Positions 59,814-64,000 of a DNA stretch of 64,000 bases are shown piece after piece. A program made the position numbers and the translations under genes. Each line of letters opens with the position of its first letter. Position 1 is the stretch's first letter. Source of the stretch: an uncultured Clostridia bacterium (lineage in GTDB: Bacteria; Bacillota; Clostridia; Oscillospirales; Acutalibacteraceae); the NCBI GenBank assembly GCA_944380725.1, contig CALWIK010000020.1, positions 210,066 to 274,065 on the forward strand. Reading direction: 5' to 3'. The notes beneath the pieces were generated by a model, which was not told the DNA's origin, ran no database searches, and was given only the letters and a program-made list of their open reading frames with translations.

Positions 59814-60200
59814 TCACTTAACTTTTTCAAAATGTTTCCTTAGGGTCAATAAAGATTTTTTTTCTATTCGAGAAACGTATGATCTTGATATGTTTAGTTT
59901 TTCAGCAACTTCCCGTTGTGTTAAGGGAACTTTTCTATCGAGTCCATATCTCATTTTAATAATCACTTTTTCTCGTTCAGACAAATCTTCTTCTATGTAT
60001 TTATACAGTTGTTCAGATTTAATTTTTGTATCGAGTTCATCTACAATTAAGTCCTCAGTTGCCATTATGTCCATCAAAACTAGCGCATTTCCATCTTTGT
60101 CAGTATCTATCGGTTCATTCATAGACACATCCTGTGCCGACTTTTTACAATTTCTAAAAAACATCAGTATTTCATTTGCTATCCTTGCGTTGTGGCTCAA
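59814..60200 (-). CDS. sigK: RNA polymerase sigma factor SigK, C-terminal half (split gene)
   Basis: The frame gives 128 residues from TTG 60200. After ANEILMFFR it reads NCKKSAQDVSMNEPIDTDKDGN and ends with region 4 REVAEKLNISRSYVSRIEKKS, matching SigK (TDKDGN) and not SigE. Regions 1-2 of SigK are missing: upstream of the pentamer AATGA (60172-60176) the sequence belongs to the recombinase gene. This is the state expected before excision of a skin element; the N-terminal half must be beyond base 64000 on the same strand. An AAGGAG four bases before the TTG might allow expression of the fragment. thyX follows in the same direction. Confidence 0.92.
   Translation of the reverse strand: MSHNARIANEILMFFRNCKKSAQDVSMNEPIDTDKDGNALVLMDIMATEDLIVDELDTKIKSEQLYKYIEEDLSEREKVIIKMRYGLDRKVPLTQREVAEKLNISRSYVSRIEKKSLLTLRKHFEKVK
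60172..60176 (-). repeat. AATGA crossover pentamer of the sigK intervening element
   Basis: AATGA on the minus strand spans codons for Asn-Glu in sigK. From memory of the B. subtilis work, its skin element recombines at an AATGA repeat at the same place. The last three bases, TGA, are also the stop of the recombinase gene. The second copy should lie past base 64000. Confidence 0.7.
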
Positions 60201-61869
60201 AATCTCCTTGTCTAATAATGTTTAAATTTGCATCATCACTACCAAATAAGTATATGTGCACATTTTCTCCATCCCAAACTATCTTCCTTATAAATGTCTT
60301 TAATGCATTACGTTTTTCTTCAATACTCATTTGTTCAAACATCTTGCTAAAAGATAACATCATATTTTTTACATTTTCAAAACCTGCCTCAGAAAAATTT
60401 TGTTGTTCTGCAAAGTCATTCAAATTTTTTATTCTTTCTTCAATCTGAACTTTTTTAGCATCAAGCTTTTCTATTTCTTCAATAATATACTTTTGGGAAG
60501 TCTCATTCAATGCTGTACACAAGGATTTTACTAAAGTTTTAATATCTTTTTCCAATTGATTTAACGATTTGGTTAACCCTAATAGCTCATCTTCGTAACT
60601 TTCGTTTTGCCTAAATAAATTATTTTTTATCTTCTCTAATTGAGCCGAAAATTCAGATTTATCCTCCGTAAGTTTCTTTATTTCTTCGCATACAGCTTTA
60701 TCTAATGTATTACCGTTTGGATTTTTCATTTGGCAATTATGCAATCGGCTCTTTTCTTTTGTCTGGCAAAGGTAACTATATATATTCTCACCCTGTGCAT
60801 TTTTTCTCTGGCTTAATTTTGGCCTCATATAATCTCCGCAGCTGCCACAAAATAACAAACCCGAAAGCAAAGCAACATTACTTTTTGGCTTATAATAAGA
60901 TTTTGATGAATTTTGTAACAATTGTTTTCTAACTTTAAGCCAATCATCAGATGATATTATGCCCTTGTGTTTTCCAACCGAAATTATCCAATCTTTCATA
61001 TCACGAACGCAATTATGTTTTCCTTCTTTTTGAAGGGTTTTATTATATGCCATTACAGCGTATTCCCCATTAAAGTTTTCCTTAAAGTTAGTATCTTCAG
61101 AAAACTCAACACCATTTTTCAAAAAAAAGTCAAGCGCATTTTCGTCTGCAACCATATATACTGGATTCGTTAATATATTTCTTATTGTAAATCTGCCAAA
61201 ATTTTTTCCATTTTTAGTTTTTACATTATTCTGTAATAAGTATGTTTCTACTTTTGTAAGAGAGTTTGTTTCAAGAAACTTTTTAAATATTGTTTTTATT
61301 ATTTCAGCTTCCTCTGGAACTATTTTTAATTTAAACATTTGTTTTGATTTTCCATCTACAACTATTTGCTCAACTTTTTCTGATTTATATCCTGTCGGAG
61401 CTATTCCACCGAGCCATCTTCCTGTCTTTGCCAACATTAGCATATTATCTCTTATTCTTTCTGCAATAGTTTCTCGCTCAAGTTGTGCAAAAACAGACGA
61501 TATATACATCATAGCTCTGCCCATAGGTGTACTTGTATCGAATTGCTCTTTTACAGAAACAAAATCTATTCCCCTGTCAATCAAATCTGTTATTAATGAG
61601 GAAAAATCACTCACATTTCTGCTTATTCTGTCAAGGCGGTAACACACGATGCATTTAACCTTATACTTTTTTAAGTCTTGCATCATTTGCCTGAACATTG
61701 GCCTTTTTAAGTTTTTGGCCGAAAAACCTTCATCTTCATAGATTACAATATCTTCGTCTTTAACATTTTTATTATGTGCTAAAATATATTCTTTGCACAT
61801 TTCTACTTGGTTTTCTATCGACTCACCTTTCCCAGTATATCTAGATTTTCTACTATAAATATAATACAT
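60172..61869 (-). CDS. Large serine recombinase, SpoIVCA-like, excisionase of the sigK element
   Basis: 565 residues. The resolvase domain (1-145) has the nucleophile Ser9 in YSRKSR, then GESIENQ, DRISRN and FAQLERETIAERI; a recombinase domain follows near 155-290 with GGIAPTGY; a zinc ribbon (FCGSCGDYM and a later pair of Cys, about 335-385) and a coiled coil (about 395-490) complete the large-serine-recombinase plan. Its stop TGA lies in the AATGA pentamer, and its last 29 bases overlap the sigK fragment frame. It is co-oriented with sigK and adjoins the 3' half. By analogy with SpoIVCA it excises the element in the mother cell. The RHH gene ends two bases before its ATG. Confidence 0.92.
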   Translation of the reverse strand: MYYIYSRKSRYTGKGESIENQVEMCKEYILAHNKNVKDEDIVIYEDEGFSAKNLKRPMFRQMMQDLKKYKVKCIVCYRLDRISRNVSDFSSLITDLIDRGIDFVSVKEQFDTSTPMGRAMMYISSVFAQLERETIAERIRDNMLMLAKTGRWLGGIAPTGYKSEKVEQIVVDGKSKQMFKLKIVPEEAEIIKTIFKKFLETNSLTKVETYLLQNNVKTKNGKNFGRFTIRNILTNPVYMVADENALDFFLKNGVEFSEDTNFKENFNGEYAVMAYNKTLQKEGKHNCVRDMKDWIISVGKHKGIISSDDWLKVRKQLLQNSSKSYYKPKSNVALLSGLLFCGSCGDYMRPKLSQRKNAQGENIYSYLCQTKEKSRLHNCQMKNPNGNTLDKAVCEEIKKLTEDKSEFSAQLEKIKNNLFRQNESYEDELLGLTKSLNQLEKDIKTLVKSLCTALNETSQKYIIEEIEKLDAKKVQIEERIKNLNDFAEQQNFSEAGFENVKNMMLSFSKMFEQMSIEEKRNALKTFIRKIVWDGENVHIYLFGSDDANLNIIRQGDFEPQRKDSK

Positions 61870-61871
61870 TT

Positions 61872-62027
61872 CTAATTTTTTACCTTTCTATCCATATAGT
61901 CTGAAATTATCTTCGCACAAACTTTAGAAACAGAGCTTTCTTCCTTTTTAGCTATGTTTATAATTCTCTCCTTTAGGTCTTTGCTTACAGTTAATATTAT
62001 CCTAGAATTATTTTTAGAAATCGCCAT
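61872..62027 (-). CDS. Ribbon-helix-helix (CopG/Arc-like) protein, 51 aa
   Basis: ATG 62027 is nine bases after GGAG; an ATG at 62036 overlaps the binding site and is less likely. The protein reads as one strand SRIILTVSKDLKERI, then helices with IAKKEESSVSKVCAKIISDYM, the usual RHH plan. Its stop is two bases before the recombinase start, so the two genes are coupled. It may repress the recombinase or act as a directionality factor. Confidence 0.7.
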   Translation of the reverse strand: MAISKNNSRIILTVSKDLKERIINIAKKEESSVSKVCAKIISDYMDRKVKN

Positions 62028-62111
62028 ATTTTTCATCTCCAATCGTTATACACAATTATAATATGGTGACTCACTAAAGTCAAGTGCTCTAAAATAAAAA
62101 GGTATTTTAAT

Positions 62112-62267
62112 TTACTTTTTCAATATTTCTGTTAGTAATTGTATTTTTTGATTTTTGCTGCATTTCAATTTGTCCAAATATTTTTTAACACTTTGTGCAT
62201 GTATTTTTGCTATTTCTACTTCGATTTTATTAGATTCATTCTCAGGTTTATGTATATATATTTTCAT
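62112..62267 (-). CDS. Hypothetical protein, 51 aa
   Basis: ATG 62267 with CAGGTGAT upstream, to TAA 62112-62114. The sequence is lysine-rich and predicted helical (KIEVEIAKIHAQSVKKYLDKL). No family is recognised. It lies just upstream of the RHH gene on the same strand, so all three could be one transcript. Confidence 0.55.
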   Translation of the reverse strand: MKIYIHKPENESNKIEVEIAKIHAQSVKKYLDKLKCSKNQKIQLLTEILKK

Positions 62268-62707
62268 AAATCACCTGGCCTCTATATATTATATTAATTT
62301 ATATTGAAAGATAGTTTTAAATATAGCCTATTCATTTTTATAAAATATCTCAGCCTGCTGTTGGTATACAGCATCACACGAATTTCACGTTCCCCACACT
62401 GGGACTGCACTCTGGGACCTAACCTCGACTATGGACAGGAGTATCATTATCGACTGCTGGATTCATTGCGGATTTGCCACCACGCAAATTTTATATCTGG
62501 ATGTTTGTCGCTCTCTCTAAATGAGGTCATCGCGCATTCGATAAAACGCTCGTCCAACAGCTTAACGTTACTGAGATATTAATATTCTTTTTTCAATGTT
62601 CAAAGAGAGATTTGGAAAATTATCCCTCTATATATTTAAGAGTCTTTTGGCAGTAATTTTTATAAGCATTTTTTAAGTTTTTTTAAAAAAACTTTTCGAC
62701 AATATTT
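62268..62707. other. Gap holding the structured segment and a palindrome
   Basis: About 440 bases without a credible protein gene. It holds the structured segment (62344-62580) and the palindrome AAGTTTTTTTAAAAAAACTT at 62675-62694 next to the sigma-like gene end. Weak -35/-10-like pairs exist on both strands and do not settle transcription direction. Confidence 0.6.
62344..62580. ncRNA. Candidate structured RNA (237 nt), strand unresolved
   Basis: GC content is about 45%, against about 25-30% around it. The ends AATATCTCAG (62344-62353) and CTGAGATATT (62571-62580) are perfect 10-bp complements; inside them GCTGTTGG (62357-62364) and CCAACAGC (62554-62561) are perfect 8-bp complements. Further local hairpins are CCCA-CAC-TGGG near 62393-62404, ACG/CGT near 62378-62389, TTGCG/CGCAA near 62466-62487 and ATCG/CGAT near 62529-62542. 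A 92-codon plus-strand frame covers it but has no binding site. Such closed multi-helix RNAs are typical of riboswitch-size or larger ncRNAs, for example the raiA motif; a family cannot be assigned by eye. Confidence 0.55.
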
Positions 62708-63097
62708 TTAAATATTTTTTTTCAAAGTCTTTATGAGTTTGTCAAATCTTTGGCATATTGCAGATTGCGTTACCTTATATTTTGTGGAGAGCTCACCTTG
62801 TGTTTTACATTCTTTGATTATGTAACTTATGAAAATCTGGTCTTCGATAGGTAGGCTTTTTACCGCTTTATATAACTTTTGATTCTCGATCACTTCAATC
62901 CAGCCCAGCAAATTTTGTTCTTCTAAATGCTTGTCCATGTTTTCATCAACAGAAAATCGGTTATACAAAATTTCATCTAGTGATCTTTCGTACTCATTTA
63001 TTTTTGATTGCTTAATAAAGTCTTTTTTATCCATATTTTTTATGACTTTATAAAAATAAGCTAATTCATCTCTTATGTTTTTTCGCTGTTTTTTCAT
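62708..63097 (-). CDS. Sigma-70 region 4-like DNA-binding protein, 129 aa
   Basis: ATG 63097 with GGAGGAAG is preferred over a longer frame starting at 63205. The C terminus has LPIEDQIFISYIIKECKTQGELSTKYKVTQSAICQRFDKLIK (key part: TKYKVTQSAICQRF), a region-4-type helix-turn-helix. No region 2 is seen, so it cannot act as a complete sigma factor; similar short proteins occur in clostridial conjugative and phage elements. It is preceded by a terminator-like hairpin (63198-63234). Confidence 0.65.
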   Translation of the reverse strand: MKKQRKNIRDELAYFYKVIKNMDKKDFIKQSKINEYERSLDEILYNRFSVDENMDKHLEEQNLLGWIEVIENQKLYKAVKSLPIEDQIFISYIIKECKTQGELSTKYKVTQSAICQRFDKLIKTLKKNI

Positions 63098-63197
63098 TTT
63101 ACTTCCTCCAAATTGTTGACTTTTTAACAGTTCGGAGTTTTTTATGGATATCTGATGTAATAAAAGAAAAATCGCTGCATCGATGTGAGCAAAAATT

Positions 63198-63234
63198 AAA
63201 AGCAAGACTTGAATTCCTTCAAAATCTTGCTTTT
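63198..63234. terminator. Bidirectional intrinsic terminator
   Basis: AAAAGCAAGA (63198-63207) pairs perfectly with TCTTGCTTTT (63225-63234); T-runs follow on both strands. Confidence 0.8.
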
Positions 63235-63471
63235 TTCCTTTCTTGAATCGTCACAAATTTTCAAAATATTGCCACAAATACTCTTGCCATTTATTATAGC
63301 TTTTAAGCGTAATCAATATTTCTTAACTTTTTGCGACGTCAAATTAAATATTTTCTTATTCACATCTAATTTTATCCAGTTCTTCCCAATTGATATGTCG
63401 GCTGTTGAATGAGATTTATTGTTGATATAATGCTATTTATTACGGTTTTTATTCAATTTTTAAAAATAAAA

Positions 63472-63508
63472 AAGAAAAAGATACTGCGCAAAAATTTGCG
63501 CAATACCT
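63472..63508 (-). terminator. Intrinsic terminator downstream of the Xre remnant
   Basis: TGCGCAAA and TTTGCGCA pair (63485-63502), with further weaker pairing outside, followed on the minus strand by TCTTTTTCTTTTTT. Confidence 0.8.
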
Positions 63509-63578
63509 TAAATTTACTCTTTTACTTCCAAGAAAACCCTATCTTTTGTTAATGCTTTCTTTAGTTTTTAATTTTCTA

Positions 63579-63650
63579 TTATAAATTTTTAGCAACTTCA
63601 AATGCTGTAATAAACGACACTGCGAATTTTTCTCGCTTTGCTTTGTCCAT
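63579..63650 (-). CDS. Possible 23-aa peptide
   Basis: ATG 63650 with a GGGG-type binding site; encodes KREKFAVSFITAF-type sequence ending at TAA 63579-63581. It lies between the Xre remnant and its terminator. It may be a genuine short peptide or a coding remnant; the evidence is weak. Confidence 0.3.
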   Translation of the reverse strand: MDKAKREKFAVSFITAFEVAKNL

Positions 63651-63660
63651 TATTTCCCCA

Positions 63661-64000
63661 TCATATAACACCTTCTTGTTCTTTCTTATTTCTTTTTATA
63701 AATTCAGATAAAAATTCGTCTATTTCAGGCGATATGCTAACGCTATAGATTTTAATAAAGAAGAAACTTTAGTGGACTGTCCTAAAAATTTTACCGTGCG
63801 GAACTTAAATTTTTTGTCCAGGCCTAAAACGTCATCTGGCTCTGTATTCAGTTCTGTGCACATCTTTAAAAACGTCAAAAAATCTGGTTCACGCCAGCCT
63901 TGCTCGTACATTCCTATTGTAGACGGCAAAACATTTACAGCCTTTGCCAATTCTGCCTGTGCAATTCCTTTTTTATATCATTAGTTTTATTATTGCGAAA
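63661..64000 (-). pseudogene. Xre-family repressor with two frameshifts (5' end outside)
   Basis: The HTH reads KGIAQAELAKAVNVLPSTIGMYEQG and then WREPDFLTFLKMCTELN in one frame (63720-63950). Its N-terminal part (RNNKTNDIK) is in a second frame, joined if one A is added to the A6 run near 63967. Its C-terminal part (SPEIDEFLSEFIKRNKK) is in a third frame, joined if one A is added near 63744. Both changes are single-base losses in A-runs, so either decay or sequencing error may explain them. It resembles the repressor of a phage or conjugative element. Confidence 0.6.

Follow-up and report, generated by a model that had tools for sequence, protein, structure and literature searches.

A skin-type element divides sigK in an uncultured clostridium and appears to hold its attachment site within its own recombinase gene

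Why should sigK, a late switch of spore formation, begin in the middle of its coding sequence? This question is raised by a 64,000-nucleotide stretch of DNA (the window) from an uncultured Clostridia bacterium of the family Acutalibacteraceae (assembly GCA_944380725.1), which forms the last 64 kb of contig C20. Near the window's end, sigK is reduced to its C-terminal half and adjoins a large serine recombinase gene; the original prediction was that an intervening element resembling skin of Bacillus subtilis splits sigK here and runs off the window. Having followed the locus beyond the window and through its relatives, we consider it probable that a mobile, skin-type element occupies sigK, that its excision would restore sigK, and that its recombinase would regain a C-terminal domain in the excised circle. 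Below, genomes of the family carry G numbers (G000 being that of the window), contigs of G000 C numbers, and loci L numbers, with L010 denoting the C21 end.

The sigK 3' half lies on the minus strand at positions 59814 to 60173 and begins with the Glu of ..CIEN/EILM..; over 59814-60200 (minus strand), the NCBIfam SigK models match from profile position 109 or 111 to the end. When the whole genome was searched with the SigK profile, the 5' half was found on another contig (C21:1811-2173, minus strand), where it covers SigK residues 2 to 122. Both halves are oriented consistently with the end of C20 being followed by a gap and then by the start of C21, such that the element would extend from 60174 to 64000 (minus strand) and over the gap to C21:1-1844. 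The 5' half terminates in ..SYAARCIEN, followed by SIITQWL and a stop, and the 3' half opens with EILMFFRN. sigK is interrupted within its reading frame between an Asn and a Glu codon, and both halves are present. Precise joining at this point would yield a complete SigK: the 230-amino-acid product joined at the common AAAT scores 301 bits against PRK05803, above the cut-off of 252, and 292 bits against TIGR02846, just under the cut-off of 298.65. Its N terminus resembles what we take to be a pro-sequence. The Asn-Glu codon pair is also used by the skin element of B. subtilis.

No second sigK was detected by the profile search of the whole genome. The only other match spanning most of the SigK profile adjoins spoIIGA and is SigE. 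G000 thus holds an N-terminal half on C21 and no complete sigK elsewhere, the reverse of what the original prediction had named as telling against it. That prediction had also expected the 5' half beyond base 64000, followed by the pentamer AATGA as a repeated core. The half was found in the fitting orientation and the junction between the Asn and Glu codons stands, but AATGA is confined to the 3' side, and the sequence on the 5' side, AAATTC, rules out the pentamer. The core common to both sides is AAAT in G000 and is reduced to AAT by the sister species, G116.

Since the window ends where the contig ends (C20:274065), the element runs off not only the window, as predicted, but also the assembly contig. 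One explanation is that C21 does not belong with C20, through an artefact of assembly or binning: G000 is a metagenome-assembled genome (1.08 Mb, 23 contigs, 3.17% contamination), and C20 ends in a repeat common to C18 and C19 and has a 36-nt overlap with C13. We consider this very unlikely, given that G116 has the same two half-genes and junctions and that both halves lie on one contig in eight relatives (G191, G030, G031, G125, G126, G092, G045, and G021) and in nine further named loci (a tenth being G045 again). Contigs C6, C9, and C11 consist of N throughout. Several homologous prophage-like elements or pieces, with shared repeats at contig ends, occur at window positions 62432-64000 and on C4, the end of C10, C14, C15, the start of C18, and C19.

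Both sigK halves are under purifying selection (omega of 0.04 and 0.12 between G000 and G116), which indicates that sigK is selected as a working gene. G000 is very small yet retains Spo0A, SpoIIID, and SigE, which score above their cut-offs; further sigma-70 genes were matched, and among its M50 peptidases, one of 211 amino acids that matched no NCBIfam model could be SpoIVFB. The strong selection and the kept regulators argue against an ordinary prophage that uses sigK as its bacterial attachment site (attB) in a host that no longer sporulates and without programmed excision, as does the sigmaE-type pattern that precedes a small element gene in relatives (described below). Such a prophage would be compatible with the phage-type genes on the element and with the small genome, and the contig that bears one split sigK 5' half with its helix-turn-helix (HTH) gene (L237, 9636-10483) is labelled Faecalibacterium prausnitzii APC923/61-1, from a genus not known to sporulate. 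On balance, we regard the ordinary prophage as improbable. Phage-like genes had been predicted and are present, namely, one for a Sak-type annealing protein on the C21 side and a weakly sigma-factor-like open reading frame (ORF) in the window; no capsid gene was found among the scanned element ORFs, the middle of the element lying outside the scan. Taken together, the recovery of the other half, the restoration of the protein by joining, the purifying selection, the occupation of the same site in many relatives, and the presence of Spo0A, SigE, and SpoIIID bear out the proposal of a skin-like sigK-intervening element.

Has the element moved? In G116, sigK is split in the same way. Over the ends of the element, the ~3 kb that this comparison spans, the element sides of G000 and G116 are identical at the junctions (300/300 bp before the right attachment site [attR] and 699/699 bp after the left [attL]; 2482/2507 bp over the whole attR-side overlap), whereas the host sides drop at the core to 89/100 and 86/100. 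The sigK halves of the two species differ by a synonymous divergence (dS) of 0.64 and 0.51 and the recombinases by one of 0.03, which implies that the element moved between species after they diverged. Judged from these sequences, the element is still mobile between species.

The same site is occupied well beyond these two species. When 200 genomes of the family were searched with SigK (46 of them re-searched), the match tables showed, in at least 22 (G000 and 21 others), a match to half of SigK with one of its ends at this site, with two of the 22 (G157 and G188) being counted from a contig end at the site. The uninterrupted motif was present in 29 of the 30 best full-length SigK matches in family genomes. 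Complete elements measured 6.9 to 34 kb (n = 17), and their cargo, judged by eye without family searches among the ORFs listed, ranged from transporter-like to sugar-catabolism-like, so that several elements lack the appearance of complete prophages. When named genomes were scanned with the element's HTH protein, 80 named loci were obtained (the best 80 of 96 relatives), mostly labelled Clostridia or lower groups, the others being labelled Sporomusaceae, Pelosinus, Holdemania, and, in one case, Alphaproteobacteria. In the literature searched, which excluded preprints and most subscription papers, we found no account of sigK elements spanning these families. In G078, G189, G190, and G082, SigK matches start only at residues 57 to 66, a hint of either a further insertion site or contig breaks. 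In L239 (1062-2926) and L269 (1400-1600) and at the contig starts of L262 and L288, sigK seems to have a second break, near codon 46 (..KK/YYA..); in L239, a different serine recombinase ends over the codon-46 point, such that sigK would be in three pieces.

The recombinase gene (60172-61869, minus strand) lies directly upstream of the sigK 3' half and overlaps it. As predicted, it encodes a large serine recombinase (565 amino acids) with Resolvase, Recombinase, and Zn-ribbon domains. A tree was built from 86 recombinases after leaving out those with fewer than 430 matched residues, identical ones, and unlinked ones more than 90% alike. One clade (support, 0.955) comprised 23 of the 24 tips linked to a sigK 3' half plus L232, whose 3' half lies beyond the locus; G013 fell outside. 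A recombinase within a clade of sigK-linked enzymes, encoded by a gene that runs into the sigK 3' half, agrees with the suggestion that this is an independently organised member of the skin class. The recombinases adjoining the 5' half in G126 and L134 belong to other lineages, and sigK has therefore been invaded more than once.

Where, then, would this enzyme cut? attR consists of the core AAAT (60174-60177) and an element-side arm, GAGCC..GATAGC, reaching to 60200 (minus strand), which mirrors the attL arm on C21 at 11 of 20 positions. Over 16 elements, the element-side arms of attL and attR were mirrored at a mean of 12.9 of 20 positions (shuffled, 5.3), compared with 5.5 of 20 for the attB arms of 15 elements. 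By this measure, the attachment site of the circle (attP) is dyad symmetric. The centre of the attachment site is A-AA-T, which, combined with how serine recombinases work, suggests that AA is the 2-bp crossover.

The position of this core relative to the recombinase gene raised a further possibility. In G000, the sigK side of the core supplies the end of the recombinase stop codon, TGA. Among 28 places with a recombinase beside a sigK 3' half (L103 and L277, which are one locus, were both counted), the recombinase frame was open to the core and in phase in 25; the stop was a TGA formed with sigK at the core in 20 of these, and the frame continued into sigK in the other 5. The first ORF at the opposite end of the element encodes a double-HTH protein (L010:1248-1844 in G000, on the C21 side; past the core, the sigK 5' half extends up to L010:2176). 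In 72 of the 80 named loci, this ORF comes directly after the sigK 5' half, both being on one strand; the 8 loci without both parts were left out of the counts. Across a restored attP, the HTH ORF would lie in the frame that continues the recombinase in 67 of the 72 loci, and that frame is open in 66. Where both att ends were in hand, an open frame led from the core to the HTH ORF in 11 of 15 genomes, although the recombinase is off the contig in 2 of the 11 (G038 and G186) and the contig of G186 stops after 46 codons. A Trp codon stands 22 codons past the core in 53 of 66 loci (12 codons in G000), and codons 9 to 42 past the core gave a pN/pS of 0.39 (99 non-independent pairs). Two HTH stretches are recognized by Pfam, and the AlphaFold model places a three-stranded sheet at residues 14 to 40, followed by the HTH helices (pLDDT, 89).

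The simplest reading of these data appears to be that attP lies inside the recombinase gene. Integration would then split sigK and the recombinase gene together but would probably not inactivate the enzyme, because its catalytic, Recombinase, and Zn-ribbon domains stay whole. Excision, the circle, and the fusion protein are what we infer from this arrangement. With modest confidence, we favor a reciprocal gene-splitting switch in which the integrated state would have sigK broken and the recombinase short, and the excised state would have sigK whole and the recombinase extended by the beta-sheet and double-HTH part encoded past attP. The enzymes would be bacterial serine integrases whose own gene contains the att site, and they would still be passing from species to species at a single sporulation locus in both Clostridia and Negativicutes.

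Several observations weigh against this switch. On the recombinase side, L224, L102 (identical to G092), and L250 are exceptions, as are 6 of the 72 loci on the HTH side (L229, L250, L275, L276, L281, and L286). The four misses among the 15 genomes are G141, open to the contig end; G191, open for 65 codons without an HTH; G092, with a degraded recombinase; and G126, with another layout. In G000 itself, a possible ATG of the HTH ORF stands 5 codons past the core, and the middle of the element falls in the assembly gap. The searches yielded no sigK-type gene in which recombinase and HTH are unsplit: scans of viral contigs with attP patterns returned 0 hits and then 4 hits without a recombinase or HTH, and among 394 genomes of the order, the 24 with HTH matches had them in frames of 83 to 352 amino acids (at most 8 candidates scored per genome).

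These points bear on whether the HTH ORF could instead encode an independent regulator or directionality factor, made in the integrated state from a transcript that starts at the sigmaE-dependent sigK promoter and includes the sigK 5' half. The open frame across attP would then be a side effect of constraint on the att arms or of a frameshift that leaves the sigK frame. The position of the ORF directly after the sigK 5' half fits this explanation, as does an ATG, GTG, or TTG between the core and the conserved Trp in 39 of 66 loci, G000 included (5 loci had no Trp in the range searched). In 22 of the 66, however, there is no such start between the core and Trp, and 11 of these also lack one upstream before an in-frame stop; the segment nevertheless has a pN/pS of 0.40 among start-less pairs. 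These 11 have their first start at codons 24 to 61, which could still give the HTH domains alone. As to frameshifting, no canonical slippery heptamer was seen by eye at the core. A fusion of the kind envisaged does exist in the viral contig L200, in which recombinase, linker, and HTH region form a single 703-amino-acid ORF, the sole one among 113 loci scanned; Pfam recognizes one HTH_3 stretch in it, its homology to the second HTH is weak, and by eye, the flanking ORFs are phage-like and the linker contains an inverted repeat. We therefore consider an independent HTH protein a possible but rather unlikely alternative.

The HTH protein of G000 had no match at E 1e-5 in phage and plasmid collections. 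Terrisporobacter phage TPELB_ph1 encodes a recombinase with 39% identity in a 1,584-nt gene, which is followed by an unnamed 312-nt ORF. A structure search with the HTH model returned no match at E 0.001, the 50 listed matches being mostly single HTH domains, and a sequence search of the PDB with the HTH profile gave 26 matches, most of them named as HTH regulators or antitoxins. In L128 and L129, the HTH ORF follows what by eye is a terminase-like gene, with no sigK or recombinase found beside it, and in L128 (4271-6585), the HTH ORF carries an attP arm. In L153 (7480-7720), the HTH ORF after the recombinase is in another frame and overlaps the recombinase stop at eight consecutive A's, which could reflect programmed slippage or an assembly error.

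What might confine excision to sporulating cells? Known skin directionality factors are under sigmaE control, namely, Skr, of 64 amino acids (described in PMC6957869), and CD1234, for which sigmaE and SpoIIID control is described (PMC5025042). For this reason, the best candidate for a recombination directionality factor is a conserved protein of ~55 amino acids, encoded in the window at 62112-62267 (minus strand; 51 amino acids). Proteins of 51 to 60 amino acids of this kind recur in 79 of 123 sequences searched and, by profile, in 63 of the 80 named loci (some being the same contig under two ids); they also occur in layouts with another recombinase (L101 and L134). The small protein matched neither Pfam nor PHROG families. 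AlphaFold models it as a helical hairpin (pLDDT, 88), for which a structure search gave three poor matches, and its profile matched seven PDB sequences up to E 1, the best being an unnamed chain, 9hnh_A (2.8e-4).

Upstream of the small gene, a sigmaE-type pattern, based on the consensus and fixed before inspection, was present in 18 (loose form) and 13 (strict form) of 43 regions left after near-identical ones were removed, against shuffled means of 3.1 and 0.65. A combined sigmaE and SpoIIID-like box preceded 21 of 45 small genes, compared with 6 of 389 other ORFs, 0 of 12 recombinases, and 7 of 69 sigK genes. The excess of the combined pattern is partly circular, since it was written after the small-gene upstream regions had been viewed. 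Also counting against sporulation control is the weak result with sigK promoters as a positive control (sigmaE-type pattern in 17 of 69; combined pattern in 7 of 69), which suggests either that the scan misses real promoters or that these promoters differ, and no sigmaE/SpoIIID-like motif was seen upstream of the small gene in G000. There, the small gene and the recombinase gene stand in line, and the latter has a promoter of sigmaA-like type (TTGACT-N17-TATAAT, read by eye; 62055-62083, minus strand). This promoter lies upstream of a pair formed by the recombinase gene and the gene preceding it (61872-62042, minus strand), which encodes a small ribbon-helix-helix or Arc-like repressor (RHH_5, 2.9e-5, below the cut-off; phrog_582 Arc-like repressor, 6.1e-6).

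Two other minus-strand ORFs lie in the window part of the element. The weakly sigma-factor-like ORF at 62708-63205 (TIGR02937, 7.7e-5, below the cut-off; phrog_351, 0.0081) has repeat copies on C18 and C4 and is common to other prophage-like elements of G000. An HTH_3-like ORF lies close to the contig end at 63720-63950 (3.2e-4, below the cut-off).

The mechanism that we propose would run as follows. The recombinase would be made in growing cells from the sigmaA promoter. In the mother cell, the small protein would be switched on, in many relatives through a sigmaE/SpoIIID-type promoter, and would switch the recombinase to excision. By a crossover at the AA of A-AA-T, sigK would be restored and a circle released, in which attP would lie inside the recombinase gene and the enzyme would regain its C-terminal beta-sheet and double-HTH domain. 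The long recombinase may serve the entry of the circle into a new cell and the short form the integrated state. Because excision would be confined to the dying mother cell, the integrated copy would be passed to the spores.

How does this element compare with known systems? Its core differs from that of the B. subtilis skin element, and the N terminus of its SigK, which is presumably a pro-sequence, sets that protein apart from the SigK of Clostridioides difficile, the host of skinCd. Like the present one, the B. subtilis element splits sigK and has a large serine recombinase; a small sigmaE-dependent directionality factor (Skr), to which the ~55-amino-acid candidate may correspond, and excision that joins the halves are described for it (PMC6957869). 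In its published layout, spoIVCA lies downstream of the sigK 5' part (PMC10747680), whereas the recombinase here runs into the 3' half, and the present element has a double-HTH ORF in frame across attP. In skinCd, CD1231, described as constitutively expressed, directly precedes the 3' part of sigK, as the recombinase does here, and CD1234 is the directionality factor; skinCd is reported to occupy another site than skinBs, in the opposite orientation, in a sigK whose product has no pro-sequence (PMC5025042). The present element would thus work like skinBs and skinCd, departing from skinBs in layout and perhaps also in its predicted self-splitting.

For the self-splitting, parallels come from other enzymes and genes. 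In archaeal suicidal tyrosine integrases (SSV1, pTN3, and pT26-2), called exclusively archaeal in a 2021 review, the att site lies inside the integrase gene and integration splits it (PMC8371274); here, the enzyme is a serine recombinase whose catalytic part stays whole and which would lose only its C-terminal domain. In mycobacteriophage BPs and its relatives, attP lies within a reading frame and integration alters a protein's C terminus, as described for integration-dependent immunity, but the gene cut there is that of the repressor (PMC4557955) rather than, as here, a recombinase gene ahead of an HTH domain. Phages phiS63 of Clostridium perfringens and MMB025 of Alicyclobacillus also insert into sigK and are reported as infectious (PMC13141910), unlike the present element so far as its scanned ORFs lack a capsid gene. 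Within the literature covered, we found no serine integrase with an attachment site in its own gene.

If the fusion is real, the integration state would be written directly into the recombinase protein as a form of directionality control, a possible design for one-way genetic switches. The comparison of recombinase and sigK dS dates events at this locus, placing transfer between species after their divergence, and the carriers include cultured hosts such as Massilioclostridium coli (L219, for which the whole element was recovered) and Ructibacterium gallinarum DSM 107454 (L232). For spores to finish, the element would have to be excised from sigK. These findings suggest that interrupting sigK is a way of life that recurs among clostridia, many of them from gut samples, and is still mobile, and not an oddity confined to a few model organisms.

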